This document shows positions 4,253 to 25,938 of a DNA stretch of 64,000 nt, piece by piece. The DNA is from Streptomyces sp. ITFR-21 (GTDB lineage Bacteria > Actinomycetota > Actinomycetes > Streptomycetales > Streptomycetaceae). The stretch's first letter is position 1. Every line of letters starts with the position of its first letter. Where the stretch lies: positions 1,397,501 to 1,461,500 of the forward strand of contig NZ_CP134605.1 in assembly GCF_031844685.1 (NCBI RefSeq), in the 5' to 3' direction. A program made the translations under genes and the position numbers. Under the pieces are notes generated by a model. The model was not told the DNA's origin, searched no databases, and worked only from the letters and a program-made list of their open reading frames with translations.

Positions 4253-5541
4253 GTCAGCTCCTGTCGTACGTAGGTGCGCCAGCGGGCGGTGAAGGCGGCG
4301 CGGTCCAGGCCCAGCGCGGCGTCCAGGCGGGTGTCGAGGGTGCCGCCCTCGGCCACCGCGCGGTAGAAGGCGGTGAGGGTGCCGGGCGACCACTGGTCGG
4401 CGATCAGCCGGCAGGCCAGCCAGCCGCCCTCGTACGCCTGCGGCAGGTCCGCCGCCGTGGAGCGGAAGTCCGCGCCCGAGGGCAGCGCGGCCGGCACCCG
4501 GCCGGCACGGACGTCGGCGGCCAGTTCCGGGGCGACCTCGGGGGCGGTCCGGCCGGAGTCGCGGTAGGCGACCCAGTCGGCGATGCCCTCCGACAGCCAC
4601 AGCGGGGTGTGCGCGGTGGTGGCCAGCCGGGTGGCGACATGGGTGGTCTCGTGGGTGAGCACAACCTGCCGGCCGAAGGCGGACAGCCCGGCGAACGCCT
4701 CGGGGTTGACGATCACCCGGTCCGCGGGAGCCTGCGCGTTGGCGCCCTGCTCGCCGGTGGTGACGGCCGCGATGTCCCGGTAGCCGTCGGCGCTCGCGCC
4801 GAGCAGCTCGGCCAGCTGGTCCAGCGTCGCGGGCGCCTCGACCACCACCTTCCCGGGCCAGCCGCTCCCCCACGCGTGCGTCACCCGCGGCACCGCTTTG
4901 TCCGCGTCGGCGGCGTAGCCGCGCAGCGCCGCCGGGTCCCCGAGCCCCAGCACCAGGCTGTGCGCGCCGCGCACCACCCGTACCGGCCCCTGGTCCCACA
5001 GCTGGACGGCCGTCCGGTGGCCGCTCGGCGCGCCGTCGTCGTCCCCGGCGACGTACCACCGCCCGGCGCGCTGGGAGAGCGTCAGATACGCCGTGGAGAC
5101 CACCGGCTCGGTGTCGTAGCCGCGGAGCCGGTAGCCGAGCCGGACCTCGACGGCGGTGCGCCGGGTGCCGTCGGCCGCGGGCGGCAGCCGGAAGGCGTCC
5201 TCCCGGACCAGGGTGTACGACCAGGCGGCGAGCGGTACGGCCGCCAGGTCGGCGAAGACCGCGGTCTGCCGGGCCCGGAACCGCTGGGCCCGCGGGTCGA
5301 TCCCGGCGAGGAAGGCGGCCTTGTCGTGGTGGAGTACGGCCGCGGCCCGCCGCTCCAGCAGCTGCCGGGCCGCCGCGTCGCCGACCGGCCGCGCGGACCC
5401 GGGGTGCCGGCCGGGGGCGCAGCCGGTCAGCAGCGCCGCCAGTACGGCCAGCGCCGTCAGCGCCGCCGGGGCCGTCAGGACAGGGGCCGCCGCCCGGCGC
5501 CGGGCGGCGGCCCGGGAGCTGGGTGCGGTCAGCGCGGGCAC
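4249..5541 (-). CDS. Lipoprotein with gluzincin-like peptidase domain
   Basis: This is a 430-residue protein with a basic N-terminus, a hydrophobic stretch and a lipobox LLTGC (residues about 37-41), so it should be a membrane-anchored extracytoplasmic lipoprotein. Residues about 270-340 contain VVLTHETTHVATR followed by PLWLSEGIADWVAYR. This is the HEXXH plus downstream Glu pattern of peptidase MA-like gluzincins. The preceding region may be an NTF2-like domain. Substrate is unknown. The GTG start at 5541 has TACGAT (5549-5554, minus strand) 7 bases upstream, consistent with leaderless initiation. It heads a two-gene operon with the M48 protease gene, with overlapping stop and start. Confidence 0.8.
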   Translation of the reverse strand: MPALTAPSSRAAARRRAAAPVLTAPAALTALAVLAALLTGCAPGRHPGSARPVGDAAARQLLERRAAAVLHHDKAAFLAGIDPRAQRFRARQTAVFADLAAVPLAAWSYTLVREDAFRLPPAADGTRRTAVEVRLGYRLRGYDTEPVVSTAYLTLSQRAGRWYVAGDDDGAPSGHRTAVQLWDQGPVRVVRGAHSLVLGLGDPAALRGYAADADKAVPRVTHAWGSGWPGKVVVEAPATLDQLAELLGASADGYRDIAAVTTGEQGANAQAPADRVIVNPEAFAGLSAFGRQVVLTHETTHVATRLATTAHTPLWLSEGIADWVAYRDSGRTAPEVAPELAADVRAGRVPAALPSGADFRSTAADLPQAYEGGWLACRLIADQWSPGTLTAFYRAVAEGGTLDTRLDAALGLDRAAFTARWRTYVRQELT

Positions 5542-6835: not shown

Positions 6836-7867
6836 TCAGATGCGGACGCCGAACTGGAACGGCATGTTGCCGATCGACTCGTACCGCACCACCGCGCCCG
6901 GCTTCGGCGCGTGCAGCACCAGGCCGTTGCCCGCGTAGAGCCCGACGTGGTGGTAGTCGCCGTAGAAGATCACCAGGTCGCCGACGCCGAGCTGGGACTG
7001 GGAGTAGATCCGGGTGCCGGCGTTGGCCTGCCCCTCGGAGGTCCGGGGTATCGAGACGCCGGCCTGCGCGTAGGCATAGGAGGTGAGGCCGGAGCAGTCG
7101 AAGGAGCCGGGGCCGTTGGCGCCGTAGACGTACGGCTTGCCGAGCTCGTTCTGGGCGGCGGCGAAGGCGGCGGCGGCCCGCGCGCTGGCGGCCTTGGCGT
7201 CACCGAGGCTGACCCGGGAGCTGGCCCGGCTGGCGGCGACGGCGTCCTGCCGCTGCATCTCCGCGCGCTGCTGCGCGGTGAGCGAGTTGAGCACCTGCTG
7301 CGCCTGGCCGAGCTTCTCCTTGGCCTGGTTCTTGCGCTTGGCCAACTCGGTGCGGGTGCTCTGCAGTTCGGCCAGCTTGCTGGTGGCCTCGGCCCGGGAC
7401 TGGTCCAGTGACCGCTTGGCGTCCTGGAGCTGTTCGAGGGCGCCGGCCTGGAGCGAGCTGAGCTGGTCCAGCGTGCTGGCCTGCTGGAGGTAGGTGTCCG
7501 GGTTGCCGGACAGGAAGAGCTGGATCGTCGGGTCGATTCCGCCGTTCCGGTACTGGGAGGCGGCGATGGCGCCGAGACCGTCCCTGAGCTGGTTCAGGTG
7601 CTGCTGCTGCCGCGCCACCTGGTCCTGAAGGCTTGAGGCTTCCTTCTGGAGGGTATGCAGCTCTTCGTTGGCGGCGTCGTACTTCTCGGTGGCCTGCTCG
7701 GCCTGCGTGTAGAGCGCGTCCACCTTGGCCTTCGCCTCACTGACCGAGGACTTGGCGGGGGCGGCGTTCGCGGCCTGCGCGGAGAGGGCGACCGCGGCTG
7801 CGGCGGTCGCGGTGAGCACGGTCACGCGCGTGCGGGTTGCCGGCTTGGGACGACGGTGGGACGCCAC
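6836..7867 (-). CDS. Secreted NlpC/P60 peptidoglycan hydrolase
   Basis: This 343-residue protein has a signal peptide (RVTVLTATAAAAVALSAQAANA), a coiled coil over about residues 45-210 and a C-terminal NlpC/P60 domain. Catalytic residues are in GSFDCSGLTSYAY, DYHHVGLYA and LVLHAPKPG. It should act in the cell wall during growth or division. The GTG start at 7867 has AAGGAG about 10 bases upstream. A structured leader of about 100 nt and a good housekeeping promoter precede it. The downstream paralogue has its own start 208 bases away and may be cotranscribed. Confidence 0.9.
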   Translation of the reverse strand: MASHRRPKPATRTRVTVLTATAAAAVALSAQAANAAPAKSSVSEAKAKVDALYTQAEQATEKYDAANEELHTLQKEASSLQDQVARQQQHLNQLRDGLGAIAASQYRNGGIDPTIQLFLSGNPDTYLQQASTLDQLSSLQAGALEQLQDAKRSLDQSRAEATSKLAELQSTRTELAKRKNQAKEKLGQAQQVLNSLTAQQRAEMQRQDAVAASRASSRVSLGDAKAASARAAAAFAAAQNELGKPYVYGANGPGSFDCSGLTSYAYAQAGVSIPRTSEGQANAGTRIYSQSQLGVGDLVIFYGDYHHVGLYAGNGLVLHAPKPGAVVRYESIGNMPFQFGVRI

Positions 7868-7966
7868 GAAGGCGAGCTCCTTCTTCCTTCAGCCGCCTAC
7901 CGGTCCAGCTGGCGGGCGGTCCCCGAGCGCCATCCGGGTTGGATGATCGACTGCGCGGAGGTTCGA
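7868..7966 (-). promoter_or_regulatory. Structured 5' leader of NlpC/P60 gene, possible ydaO-like element
   Basis: The predicted leader contains CATCC-AACCC-GGATG and then CCGCC...GGCGG around CCAGCTGGACCGGTAGGCGG, ending just before the ribosome site. The last part resembles, from memory, the conserved 3' strand of ydaO/c-di-AMP riboswitches, which control wall hydrolases in Streptomyces. The usual 5' motifs of that riboswitch are not evident and the predicted start site lies inside the element, so I hold this weakly. Confidence 0.3.
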
Positions 7967-12932: not shown

Positions 12933-12959
12933 GACGCCGTCCGCGTCGTGGACGGCGTC
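12933..12959 (+). terminator. Terminator hairpin after trpD
   Basis: A perfect 10-base stem GACGCCGTCC / GGACGGCGTC encloses a 7-base loop. It separates trpD from the SAM-IV-controlled gene, and its end abuts the next predicted -35 element. Confidence 0.75.
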
Positions 12960-12987
12960 TTGCGCGTCCGCCGGCTTCTGGCACAAT
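12960..12987 (+). promoter_or_regulatory. Predicted promoter of the SAM-IV riboswitch transcript
   Basis: TTGCGC (12960-12965) and CACAAT (12982-12987) are 16 bases apart. Transcription would begin near 12994, immediately before the first conserved base of the riboswitch, which supports both calls. Confidence 0.55.
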
Positions 12988-12995
12988 GTCCTCCA

Positions 12996-13108
12996 GGTCA
13001 CGAGTGACAGCGTCAAGGCCCCGGCTCGCTGTCCGGCAACCCTCCGTCCGTGGTGGGGTGCCCCGGGTGAGGACCAGGCTGTGAGCAAGCAAGGCTCGCA
13101 GCAAGCCG
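12996..13108 (+). promoter_or_regulatory. SAM-IV riboswitch
   Basis: The leader matches the actinobacterial SAM-IV aptamer as I recall it. GGTCACGAGTG opens P1 and GAGGACC closes it; between lie CAGCGTCAAGGCCCCGG, CCGGCAACCCTCC, and TGGTGGGGTGCCCCGGGTGA. After P1 a GC-rich hairpin and GCAAGCC stretch can form the outer pseudoknot. SAM binding normally lowers expression of sulfur-metabolism genes. It lies 19 bases before the start codon of the class V PLP enzyme, whose ribosome site GGGGAG (13114-13119) is just outside, so control of translation initiation is likely. Confidence 0.88.
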
Positions 13109-13126
13109 GACTTGGGGAGCTCTGTC

Positions 13127-14500
13127 ATGACGGTATACAGCCCTGCGACCGCTACCGACTGTGAGACCACGTCACCGCTGCCGGTCCTCGGACGCGACGT
13201 CCGGGTGCCGCTGGTGACGGGCGGCGAGGTCACGTACGCGGCCCTGGACTACGCGGCCAGCGCGCCGGCCCTCCAGCGGGTGTGGGACGACGTGGCCGCG
13301 TACGCGCCCTACTACGGCAGCGTGCACCGCGGCGCCGGGTACCTCTCGCAGCTGTCCACCGACCTGTTCGAGCAGAGCCGCGCGACGGTCGCGCGGTTCC
13401 TCGGCTGTCGCCCGGACGACGAGGTGGTCTTCACCCGGTCCACCACCGACTCGCTCAACCTGCTCGCGGCCGTACTGCCGGCCGGAACCCAGGTCTACGT
13501 CTTCGACACCGAGCACCACGCCTCCCTGCTGCCCTGGCAGCGCGGCGAGGACGCGCACGTCACCTGGCTGTCCGCCCCCCGCACCCCCGAACAGGCCGTC
13601 GCCGCCCTCGACGTGGCACTGCACGGCGCCCCCAAGGGCCCCAAGCTGGTCTGCGTCACCGGCGCGTCCAACGTGACCGGGGAGCTGTGGCCGGTACGGA
13701 AGCTGGCCGCCGCCGCGCACCGGCACGGCGCCCGGATCGTCCTGGACGCGGCGCAGCTGGTCCCGCACCAGGCGGTGGACATCACCGCGCTCGACGTGGA
13801 CTGGGTGGCCTTCTCCGGGCACAAGCTGTACGCGCCCTTCGGCTCCGGCGTGCTCGCCGGCCGGCCCGACTGGCTGCGCGACGCCGAGCCGTACCTGGCC
13901 GGCGGCGGCGCCACCCGCAAGGTCGCCCGCCGGGTCGACGGACAGCTCGACGTCGAGTGGCACACCGCGGTGGCCGCCCGCCACGAAGCGGGATCGCCCA
14001 ACGTGATCGGCGCCTACGCCATCGCGTCGGCGTGCCGCGCCCTCACCGAGGCCGGCTACGACCGGCTGGTCACCCGCGAGCGGCAGCTGCTGGCCCGGCT
14101 GCGCGAGGGGCTGGCCACGGTGCCCGAGGTGCGGGTGCTGTCCCTCTTCGGTGAGGACTCCGCCCGGGTCGGCGTGCTCTCCTTCGTCGTCCAGGGCTGG
14201 AACAGCTCGCACTTCGCCGCGGCCCTGTCCGCGGAGCACGGCATCGGGGTCCGCGACGGCCTCTTCTGCGCCCACCCGCTGGTCCGTACGCTCCTGGACA
14301 GCGAGCCCGACGAGCCCGGCGAATGCGGCGCGCCCGACGCCGCCCCCGGCGAACGCTCCCTCAACGCCATCCGCGTCAGCTTCGGCGCCGGCACCCCCGA
14401 CGAACACATCGACCGCTTCCTCGACGCGGTCACCACCCTCGTCAAGGACGGCGCCCGCTGGTCCTACCGCACCGAGAACGGCCGTTGCGTCCCGGCGTAG
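13127..14500 (+). CDS. SufS-like class V PLP enzyme under SAM-IV control
   Basis: This 457-residue fold-type I PLP enzyme belongs to aminotransferase class V. Residues near the start read YAALDYAASAPALQ; the cofactor Lys is K233 in WVAFSGHKLYAPFGSG, and the PLP-binding Asp and Gln lie in IVLDAAQLVPHQ. Near the C-terminus GIGVRDGLFCAHPLV aligns with the SufS-type loop around the catalytic Cys (Cys381 here), so cysteine desulfurase or selenocysteine-lyase-like chemistry is possible. The SAM-IV riboswitch upstream argues for a role in sulfur-amino-acid economy. ATG at 13127 is preceded 7 bases upstream by GGGGAG. No suf genes adjoin it. The exact substrate is not known. Confidence 0.8.
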   Translation: MTVYSPATATDCETTSPLPVLGRDVRVPLVTGGEVTYAALDYAASAPALQRVWDDVAAYAPYYGSVHRGAGYLSQLSTDLFEQSRATVARFLGCRPDDEVVFTRSTTDSLNLLAAVLPAGTQVYVFDTEHHASLLPWQRGEDAHVTWLSAPRTPEQAVAALDVALHGAPKGPKLVCVTGASNVTGELWPVRKLAAAAHRHGARIVLDAAQLVPHQAVDITALDVDWVAFSGHKLYAPFGSGVLAGRPDWLRDAEPYLAGGGATRKVARRVDGQLDVEWHTAVAARHEAGSPNVIGAYAIASACRALTEAGYDRLVTRERQLLARLREGLATVPEVRVLSLFGEDSARVGVLSFVVQGWNSSHFAAALSAEHGIGVRDGLFCAHPLVRTLLDSEPDEPGECGAPDAAPGERSLNAIRVSFGAGTPDEHIDRFLDAVTTLVKDGARWSYRTENGRCVPA

Positions 14501-24504: not shown

Positions 24505-25938
24505 ATGCCCTATTTCGACATGGCTTCGGCGGCTCCGCTGCATCCGGTGGCACGTCAGGCGCTGCTCGCGGCGCTGGAGGAGGGGTGGGCGGATCCGGCC
24601 CGGCTGTACCGGGAGGGACGGCGGGCCCGGCTGCTGCTGGACGCGGCACGGGAGGCCGTGGCGGCGGAGGTGGGCTGCCGCCCCGACGAGGTGGCATTCA
24701 CTCCTTCGGGGACACGCGCGCTGCACTCCGCGGTCGCGGGGGCCGCCGCGGGGCGCCGCCGGATCGGCCGCCGCGTGGTGGTGTCGGCGGTGGAGCACTC
24801 GGCGGTACTGCACGCGGCCGAGCCGTACGAGAGCGCGCACGTGGGGGTGGACCGCGCCGGGCGGGTGGATCCGGCGGCGTTCGCGGCGGCGCTGCGGGCG
24901 GACACCGCGCTGGCCTGTCTGCAGTCCGCGAACCACGAGGTGGGGACGGTCCAGCCGGTCGCCGAAGTGGCCGACGCCTGCCGGGCGGTGGGGGTGCCGC
25001 TGCTGGTGGACGCGGCGCAGTCGCTGGCCTGGGGGCCGGTGCCGGGCGGCTGGTCGCTGCTGGCGGGCAGCGCGCACAAGTGGGGCGGCCCGCCCGGGGT
25101 GGGACTGCTGGTGGTGCGCAAGGGCACCCGGTACGCGCCCCAGGAGCCCGCCGACGAGCGGGAGTCGGGCCGCGCGCCGGGCTTCGGCAACCTGCCGGCG
25201 GTCGTGGCGGCGGCGGCCTCGCTGCGCGCGGTGCGGGAGGAGGCGGCGCGAACGGCGGTACGGCTGTCCGCGCTGGTGGACCGGATCAGGAGCCGGGTGC
25301 CGCAGCTCGTGCCCGATGTCGAGGTGGTGGGGCACGACCGGCTGCGGCTGCCGCACCTGGTCACCTTCTCCTGCCTGTACGTGGACGGCGAGGCGCTGCT
25401 GACCGGGCTGGACCGGGCGGGCTTCTCGGTGTCGTCGGGTTCGTCGTGCACGTCGAGCACCCTGACGCCGAGTCATGTGCTCAAGGCGATGGGGGTGCTC
25501 TCGGAGGGCAATGTGCGGGTGTCGCTGCCGCCCGGTACCGAGGAGGCGGACGTCGAGCGGTTCCTCGCGGTGCTGCCGGGGGTGGTCGCGGAGGTCCGCG
25601 GCCGGCTCGGGGCACCGGTCGGCAGCGGGCCGGTGGAAGCAGGGCCGGTGGGAGCGGTGCCGGCTGAGGCACGGGCGGCCGGGCAGGGGGCGGCGGCCGG
25701 CGCCGGGCCGGCCGACGGGCTGGTGGTGGACTCGCTCGGCAGGCTCTGCCCGATCCCCGTCATCGACCTGGCCCGGGTGATCGGGCGGGTGCCGGTCGGC
25801 GGCCTGGTCACCGTACTGGCCGACGACGAGGCGGCCCGGCTGGACATCCCGGCGTGGTGCGCGATGCGCGAGCAGGAGTACGTGGGGGAGCACCCGGCCG
25901 TACGCGGCACCGCGTACGTGGTGCGGCGCCGCGTCTGA
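24505..25938 (+). CDS. Cysteine desulfurase-TusA fusion protein
   Basis: This 477-residue protein joins an IscS/NifS-like class V cysteine desulfurase (residues about 1-365) to a C-terminal TusA/SirA sulfur-carrier domain (about 405-477) through an Ala/Gly/Pro linker. The PLP Lys is K192 in GSAHKWGGPPG; the persulfide Cys is C315 in VSSGSSCTSS; the carrier Cys is C415 in the TusA CPxP motif RLCPIPVIDLA. The natural reading is that sulfur mobilised from cysteine passes directly to the carrier domain. The acceptor is unknown; tRNA thiolation and molybdenum or copper cofactor work are options. TAGCGT (24493-24498) lies 6 bases before the ATG, suggesting leaderless mRNA. It is divergent from ctaCDF across 250 bases. 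Confidence 0.9.
   Translation: MPYFDMASAAPLHPVARQALLAALEEGWADPARLYREGRRARLLLDAAREAVAAEVGCRPDEVAFTPSGTRALHSAVAGAAAGRRRIGRRVVVSAVEHSAVLHAAEPYESAHVGVDRAGRVDPAAFAAALRADTALACLQSANHEVGTVQPVAEVADACRAVGVPLLVDAAQSLAWGPVPGGWSLLAGSAHKWGGPPGVGLLVVRKGTRYAPQEPADERESGRAPGFGNLPAVVAAAASLRAVREEAARTAVRLSALVDRIRSRVPQLVPDVEVVGHDRLRLPHLVTFSCLYVDGEALLTGLDRAGFSVSSGSSCTSSTLTPSHVLKAMGVLSEGNVRVSLPPGTEEADVERFLAVLPGVVAEVRGRLGAPVGSGPVEAGPVGAVPAEARAAGQGAAAGAGPADGLVVDSLGRLCPIPVIDLARVIGRVPVGGLVTVLADDEAARLDIPAWCAMREQEYVGEHPAVRGTAYVVRRRV

Follow-up and report, generated by a model that had tools for sequence, protein, structure and literature searches.

The window, by which we mean the whole 64-kb stretch of DNA analysed, contains a SAM-IV riboswitch directly before a gene for a SufS-like class V PLP enzyme. 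What is new is the depth of this pairing: SAM-IV lies directly upstream of the enzyme in 29 of 35 loci, mostly outside the family Streptomycetaceae, without a widely kept gene neighbour. We predict, at about an even chance of being right, that the enzyme is a SAM-repressed cysteine desulfurase, a relative of SufS, that supplies sulfur for homocysteine. In most Streptomycetaceae the riboswitch is followed by a six-codon upstream open reading frame (uORF), which we describe below.

A SAM-IV riboswitch at the ribosome site of the enzyme gene

The enzyme gene (13127–14500, +) encodes 457 amino acids of the Aminotran_5, or class V PLP, type. The first-pass annotation had described a tightly ordered leader before it, and each element matches the sequence. 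A candidate promoter, TTGCGC-16-CACAAT, lies at 12960–12987 (+; TTGCGC at 12960–12965, CACAAT at 12982–12987), with transcription expected to start near 12994; the aptamer starts at 12996, nine bases past the promoter's end; and a putative Shine–Dalgarno sequence, GGGGAG (13114–13119, +), stands 7 nt before the ATG at 13127. A generic sigma-70 scan found no promoter and did not list TTGCGC-16-CACAAT. Among the leaders printed, CTTG[CT] and TGGCA are kept at the same position in all eight from Streptomycetaceae, and the pattern is not clear in five from other families. Between the promoter and the upstream neighbour, trpD, a 10-bp inverted repeat, GACGCCGTCC-n7-GGACGGCGTC (12933–12959, +), is followed by a short T tail. 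As we read it, this repeat is probably the trpD terminator; it is absent from the list of a strict terminator scan, and similar hairpins are present in printed leaders of relatives.

The downstream neighbour, convergent with the enzyme gene, is presumably a cytochrome-b-like gene. Neither a suf operon nor a SufE or SufU partner occurs among the neighbours in the window, just as had been remarked on first inspection. A suf-type operon with a true SufS, the one member checked against its family, lies about 215 kb from the enzyme (C1:1191–1197k).

That the leader is a SAM-IV riboswitch had been claimed from the letters alone, and the Rfam covariance model agrees: positions 12996–13113 (+) match the full RF00634 model (1–116) with 104.1 bits (E 4.6e-18), against a gathering score of 38. 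This is the only Rfam match at gathering level in the window, and a whole-genome scan places it identically. Reading the sequence with the topology given in passages of the SAM-IV cryo-EM paper (PMC6890682), we assign to pseudoknot PK-1 the strand CCCGG in the P2 loop (13020–13024, +) and its partner CCGGG (13063–13067). In the same passages PK-2 joins a P3 strand with the 3′ end of the aptamer (PMC6890682). By sequence reading and leader comparison, PK-2 here would pair GUCCG in the P3 loop (13046–13050, +) with CGGAC (13107–13111), leaving two bases between this strand and the ribosome site. At least five PK-2 pairs are possible in 57 of 59 leaders. Counted over the 35 distinct loop/tail combinations, 33 can form them, whereas 500 shuffles gave 24.4 on average and never more than 29, a comparison uncorrected for kinship; the pair types include GUCCG/CGGAC, UCCGCG/CGCGGA, CUCGCG/CGCGAG and AACCGU/ACGGUU. 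A pseudoknot-free fold of the window leader, in which PK-1 and PK-2 are not representable, pairs the ribosome site with the aptamer; this fold was set aside. With SAM bound, we infer, a stable PK-2 would hinder access of the ribosome; that SAM would turn the enzyme off follows from the class of riboswitch.

The enzyme is related to SufS and distinct from it

The first-pass annotation had called the enzyme SufS-like, pointing to its PLP lysine and to a cysteine at the catalytic position. Both residues are kept, K233 (in SGHK) and C381 (in RDGLFCAHP) being invariant in all 67 orthologs; membership of SufS itself does not hold, given a separate clade and 258 bits against the SufS model TIGR01979 (cut-off 475.1). 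The genome's own SufS, which reads as part of the suf operon, reaches 616 bits. The enzyme likewise falls short of the curated cut-offs for the selenocysteine lyase SclA (NF040779, 133.6 against 525) and for EgtE (TIGR04343, 58.4 against 400). Residues H67, R68, H131, D207, Q210, S230, H232, R376 and R416, which from alignment and recall we take to be those of the SufS active site, are invariant in 15 diverse aligned rows. By every residue compared, the enzyme is predicted to work like a type II cysteine desulfurase. Its orthologs carry the motif R-x-G-x-F-C-A-H in place of the R-x-G-[HN]-H-C-A of SufS-type proteins, and GGG replaces the GGE of SufS.

The best solved relatives are SufS-type cysteine desulfurases, both by sequence, where FGM3 and UstD appear among the distant ones, and by fold (26–33% identity, TM-scores of 0.60–0.65 over the query); the structure model behind the latter has a mean pLDDT of 71, with residues 1–70 under 50, and served only to assign the fold class. 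In a quick maximum-likelihood tree (88 rows, long-branch warnings, careful search unfinished) a branch with SH-aLRT 100 separates the 67 orthologs from 11 SufS-motif proteins of actinobacteria and from SufS, CsdA and IscS of E. coli; the stem of the orthologs is long, at 1.83 changes per column. On this quick tree the enzyme would be a sister group of SufS and CsdA and not SufS. Among the rows used it does not group with a clade that lacks the cysteine, in keeping with the earlier placement.

The pairing follows the gene and not its surroundings

Orthologs occur in 147 of 150 Streptomycetaceae genomes (E 1e-60 or better) and, at 1e-65, in 148 of 394 genomes of the class, 109 of these outside the family. 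Forty stretches were fetched, and gene calling recovered the enzyme in 38; L093 and L096 had no called protein that matches it and so do not enter the neighbour table, the alignment or the tree, and L104, the same gene as L009, was excluded from the alignment and the tree. The Rfam scan covered 35 of the 40, leaving out L093, L096, L104, L108 and L109. In 29 of them a SAM-IV immediately precedes the enzyme on its own strand; the 33 scanned loci outside the family account for 28 of these matches. The loci without an upstream SAM-IV are L073, L094, L074, L081, L086 and L106. The enzymes of L073 and L094 have 41–42% identity and branch in the tree as sister to the rest of the orthologs, and L106 is a second copy in a family genome.

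Within the family, SAM-IV precedes the enzyme in all 20 loci given to Rfam, and a blastn search with six aptamers places the aptamer before the enzyme in all 57 leaders. Across a 69-genome panel, SAM-IV is present in 32 of 34 genomes with the enzyme versus 11 of 35 without; the family members G008, G012 and G113 lack the enzyme and also lack SAM-IV.

No widely kept gene neighbour was found in the 38 fetched loci, where neighbours were grouped by clustering and not given individual annotations; some are shared within small sets of close relatives. Conserved neighbours were accordingly set aside as a clue to function, the two commonest clusters outside the family (within eight genes) reaching 8 and 7 of the 39 rows, and at differing positions. 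Because SAM-IV is kept upstream while the neighbours change, the pairing appears to be old and to follow the gene, and a pairing so old and widely kept suggests that the enzyme supplies sulfur for methionine.

Two of the fetched stretches hold riboswitches in divergent pairs. In G193, two SAM-IVs diverge (L101 1956–2073, −, and 2175–2291, +), one of them on the enzyme, and in G179 a SAM-I and a SAM-IV stand back to back (L071 7593–7682, −, and 7847–7961, +).

SAM riboswitches, methionine and sulfur genes in the same genome

The genome has five SAM-IV elements. The four besides the enzyme's precede an SsuA-like ABC set, an NtaA/DmoA-family monooxygenase with a flavin reductase, an amino-acid-type binding protein and a dipeptide/nickel-type transporter; in these target sets the monooxygenase alone exceeds its curated cut-off. 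A SAM-IV also stands no more than 300 bases ahead of a metX-like gene in at least eight panel genomes (G151, G173, G179, G191, G195, G269, G426 and G434). The link that had first been drawn between SAM control and methionine status is retained; with transport, monooxygenase and metX-like genes as the other targets of SAM-IV, the enzyme's side of that link, first given as 'cysteine breakdown', looks more like a mobilisation of sulfur, probably for homocysteine.

Two of the genome's SAM-IVs are themselves arranged back to back, about 180 bases apart (L039 4523–4635, −, and 4817–4927, +), with the monooxygenase operon leading one way and the binding protein the other.

The genome's only SAM-I precedes a threonine-synthase-like protein (NCBIfam threonine synthase, 254.3, over the cut-off of 167.1) and then a 71-residue MoaD-like protein that ends in GG; the latter, MetO-like, is just below the NCBIfam cut-offs (59.2 of 60). 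We read this SAM-I-controlled pair (L174 4667–6240, −) as MetM–MetO. MetM is said, from the work of Hasebe and colleagues in 2024, to use a sulfur carrier. Passages of PMC12172450 describe Streptomyces MetM as a homocysteine synthase, citing Hasebe et al. 2024, and report a SAM riboswitch upstream of metM in S. albulus, with metO in the sulfur carrier family. A MetY–MetX-like pair also occurs (L175 2595–5104, +), so that together with the MetM–MetO-like pair one genome holds two possible homocysteine routes. Two further candidates for a partner route were discarded, HcyBio (PF01837) being present in none of the 69 panel genomes and MetA/HTS in two.

Other desulfurases are present besides SufS. 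The genome has an IscS-like protein, and about 10 kb downstream of the enzyme lies a cysteine desulfurase–TusA fusion (window 24505–25935, +), a NifS/IscS-type protein with 248.6 bits, below the cut-off, and TusA-like residues at 407–476.

Occurrence with MetM and MetX was compared across the 394 genomes. MetM-like proteins were called by score, at E < 1e-100 to this genome's copy (a clear score gap; seven weaker matches counted as absent), with adjacency of MetO checked in this genome only; MetX-like proteins were called at E 1e-60, and none of the 394 genomes reaches the curated cut-off. The 148 enzyme genomes divide into 71 with MetM-like only, 51 with both, 26 with MetX-like only and none with neither. 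Among genomes without the enzyme the corresponding numbers are 69, 58, 108 and 11. The enzyme is thus commoner with MetM, occurring in 122 of 249 MetM-like genomes versus 26 of 145 without (odds ratio 4.4, p 4.7e-10; 3.0 outside the family, kinship uncorrected). An exclusive tie is ruled out by the 26 of 148 enzyme genomes that lack MetM. The enzyme is plainly optional for either homocysteine route, being absent from 127 of 249 MetM-like and 166 of 243 MetX-like genomes. That all 148 enzyme genomes have a MetM- or MetX-like protein says little, because 383 of the 394 genomes have one. MetX-like proteins are missing from 31 of 39 enzyme genomes in the family and from 40 of 109 outside it.

In S. 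coelicolor we take SCO2146 and SCO4293, from annotation and recall, to be the orthologs of the enzyme and of MetM. Passages of an array study list SCO2146 (cysteine desulfurase) and SCO4293 (threonine synthase) in one five-gene class and report that ArgR binds before SCO4293 (PMC3293853), a binding that could itself explain the class.

A six-codon uORF between riboswitch and enzyme

In 51 of 57 Streptomycetaceae leaders (loci from L010 to L069; for example L018, downstream of its SAM-IV at 1138–1254) the ribosome site of the riboswitch leads into a six-codon uORF, M-x-[KQNE]-R-M-R-TAG, instead of the enzyme; a first, stricter pattern found it in 49 of the 57. The family set used for counting holds 52 uORFs, namely the 51 loci and L105, found through the enzyme. 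The uORF lies 6–7 nt from the ribosome site in 44 of 52 and starts with ATG in 18, GTG in 30 and TTG in 4; codons 2 and 3 are variable, CGA-ATG-CG is unchanged in all 52, and the stop is always TAG. The last base of codon 6, which is fourfold degenerate, is A in 38, T in 8 and C in 6. This conservation is partly by construction, since the pattern demanded a start codon, CGN-ATG-CGN and a stop, and one search also ribosome-site-like and CAAG-type strings upstream; neither the CGA of codon 4 nor the TAG was imposed. In the printed leaders the enzyme has a ribosome site of its own after the uORF. Enzyme and uORF stand about 50 nt or more from each other, and the frame of the one relative to the other varies across the leaders (20, 16 and 15).

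A scan of GTDB genomes for AGCGAATGCGNTAGG returned at least 80 loci; conservation at the bases of the motif is here by construction. Among the matches listed, 41 are from Streptomyces (one titled Actinobacteria bacterium OV320), and of these 35 have the enzyme downstream, another is truncated where the locus ends, and five are a different, conserved promoter-like element. The other 39 listed look like chance matches. The promoter-like element, TTTTGACCG-n-AGCGAATGCG-n-TAGGTACGCT (L210, L226, L233, L283 and L287), is apparently unrelated to the riboswitch.

Six leaders, those of the window, L009, L022, L024, L027 and L035, have no uORF, and there the enzyme starts directly on the ribosome site of the riboswitch; they sit in two places in the tree. 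We lean towards the view that in Streptomycetaceae SAM-IV gates translation of the uORF M-x-[KQNE]-R-M-R-UAG and does not act on the enzyme directly. In this view the uORF would pass the SAM signal on to the homocysteine-pathway desulfurase encoded downstream, by way of a hairpin at its stop codon, of premature termination or of ribosomes stalled at R-M-R. The uORF would then have been lost in the lineage of the window and in one further clade, with the enzyme joined to the same ribosome site. A short hairpin does often begin at the G of the uORF stop codon. An intrinsic terminator behind the uORF was rejected: the folding energy of the region at the UAG has a median of −9.9 kcal/mol versus −7.0 in control windows, 29% of controls are as low and a clear U run is missing, so that termination there is only a guess. 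In passages of a study of S. clavuligerus, CRV15_21540 has a premature transcript with SAM-IV and is among the genes with the most extreme falls in reads into the gene (PMC8269248); this fall would fit attenuation. The eight leader peptides listed in passages of an S. lividans paper include none at SLIV_26975 (PMC8079986), and MSKRMR had no match in the literature searched.

A predicted sulfur donor for homocysteine

We hypothesize that with SAM high, the aptamer and PK-2 would block ribosome access at GGGGAG, and the enzyme would not be made. With SAM low, the enzyme would take the sulfur of cysteine as a persulfide on C381, from which it would reach homocysteine either by charging of MetO for MetM or as sulfide for MetY. 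SAM would thereby close a feedback loop on the sulfur supply of homocysteine, and iron–sulfur assembly would be left to the separate SufS. This reading, at the even chance given above, is favoured by the riboswitch itself and its conserved pairing with the enzyme, by the invariant residues and the SufS-type solved relatives, by the metX-like targets of SAM-IV elsewhere, by the MetM–MetO-like pair under SAM-I, by the association with MetM and by the array class. Against it, both homocysteine routes occur without the enzyme, no neighbour or fused partner indicates a sulfur acceptor, MetO may be charged without the enzyme, NCBIfam assigns the MetM-like copy to threonine synthase, ArgR could account for the array class, the window holds the TusA-fused desulfurase too, and the structure model is of middling quality.

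The other four SAM-IVs of the genome, which precede transport and monooxygenase genes, would suit a scavenging C–S lyase (for example a cysteine sulfinate desulfinase) that uses imported organosulfur at low SAM and is not a homocysteine donor as such; the relative CsdA is annotated as a cysteine sulfinate desulfinase. We think this unlikely, as in other genomes the enzyme retains a SAM-IV of its own without any fixed neighbours, and C381 is invariant although a cysteine of this type is not known to be needed for desulfinase chemistry. An S. lividans table, which gives cysteine desulfurase (thiamine metabolism) (PMC8079986), points instead to a general desulfurase for thiamine, tRNA thiolation or other cofactors, its SAM regulation incidental. 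This too has a low probability in our judgement: the genome also has SufS, the IscS-like protein and the TusA-fused one, conserved SAM control suits methionine metabolism better, and 246 of 394 genomes have no ortholog at 1e-65. Very improbable is another class V PLP enzyme (an aminotransferase, epimerase or C–C bond former) that retained the cysteine by descent, a reading that the long stem branch, RxGxFCAH in place of RxG[HN]HCA, GGG for GGE, and FGM3 and UstD, which have other chemistry, among the distant solved relatives would suit, but all residues equated with the desulfurase active site are kept.

If the enzyme is indeed a homocysteine sulfur donor, this would put a name to a SAM-controlled step in a group often without MetX, the MetX-less members of which would depend on the recently described MetM/MetO route, and the uORF would add a relay from riboswitch to peptide.

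Relation to known systems

SAM-IV is said to have been defined by Weinberg and colleagues in 2008, in work that may list the enzyme gene. The placement of SAM-IV before the enzyme is already in print for Streptomyces: passages of two papers put it upstream of SLIV_26975, a cysteine desulfurase of S. lividans (PMC8079986), and of CRV15_21540 of S. clavuligerus (PMC8269248). These loci have the same riboswitch class before a cysteine desulfurase or class V PLP enzyme as the window has; the passages concerned mention no uORF, whereas most Streptomycetaceae leaders have one and the window has none. A narrow literature search returned no description of how deep the pairing goes, of a clade separate from SufS, of a tie to MetM and MetX or of the uORF.

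With SufS (TIGR01979) and CsdA the enzyme shares its fold class, the PLP lysine, the cysteine of the mobile loop and the active-site set; it differs in its score (258 bits, below 475.1), its own clade, the motif RxGxFCAH and the lack of a suf operon. The B12 riboswitches with uORFs of M. tuberculosis, as described in passages of PMC11260477, are alike in that riboswitch output passes through the translation of a short uORF. There, the ligand and the uORFs are others, and the uORF of ppe2 overlaps the gene start, whereas that of Streptomycetaceae is separate from the enzyme. The MetM/MetO route (as far as the passages of PMC12172450 go) resembles the enzyme as SAM-riboswitch-controlled sulfur chemistry of methionine synthesis in Streptomyces, and the enzyme is a candidate for charging the sulfur carrier of MetM.
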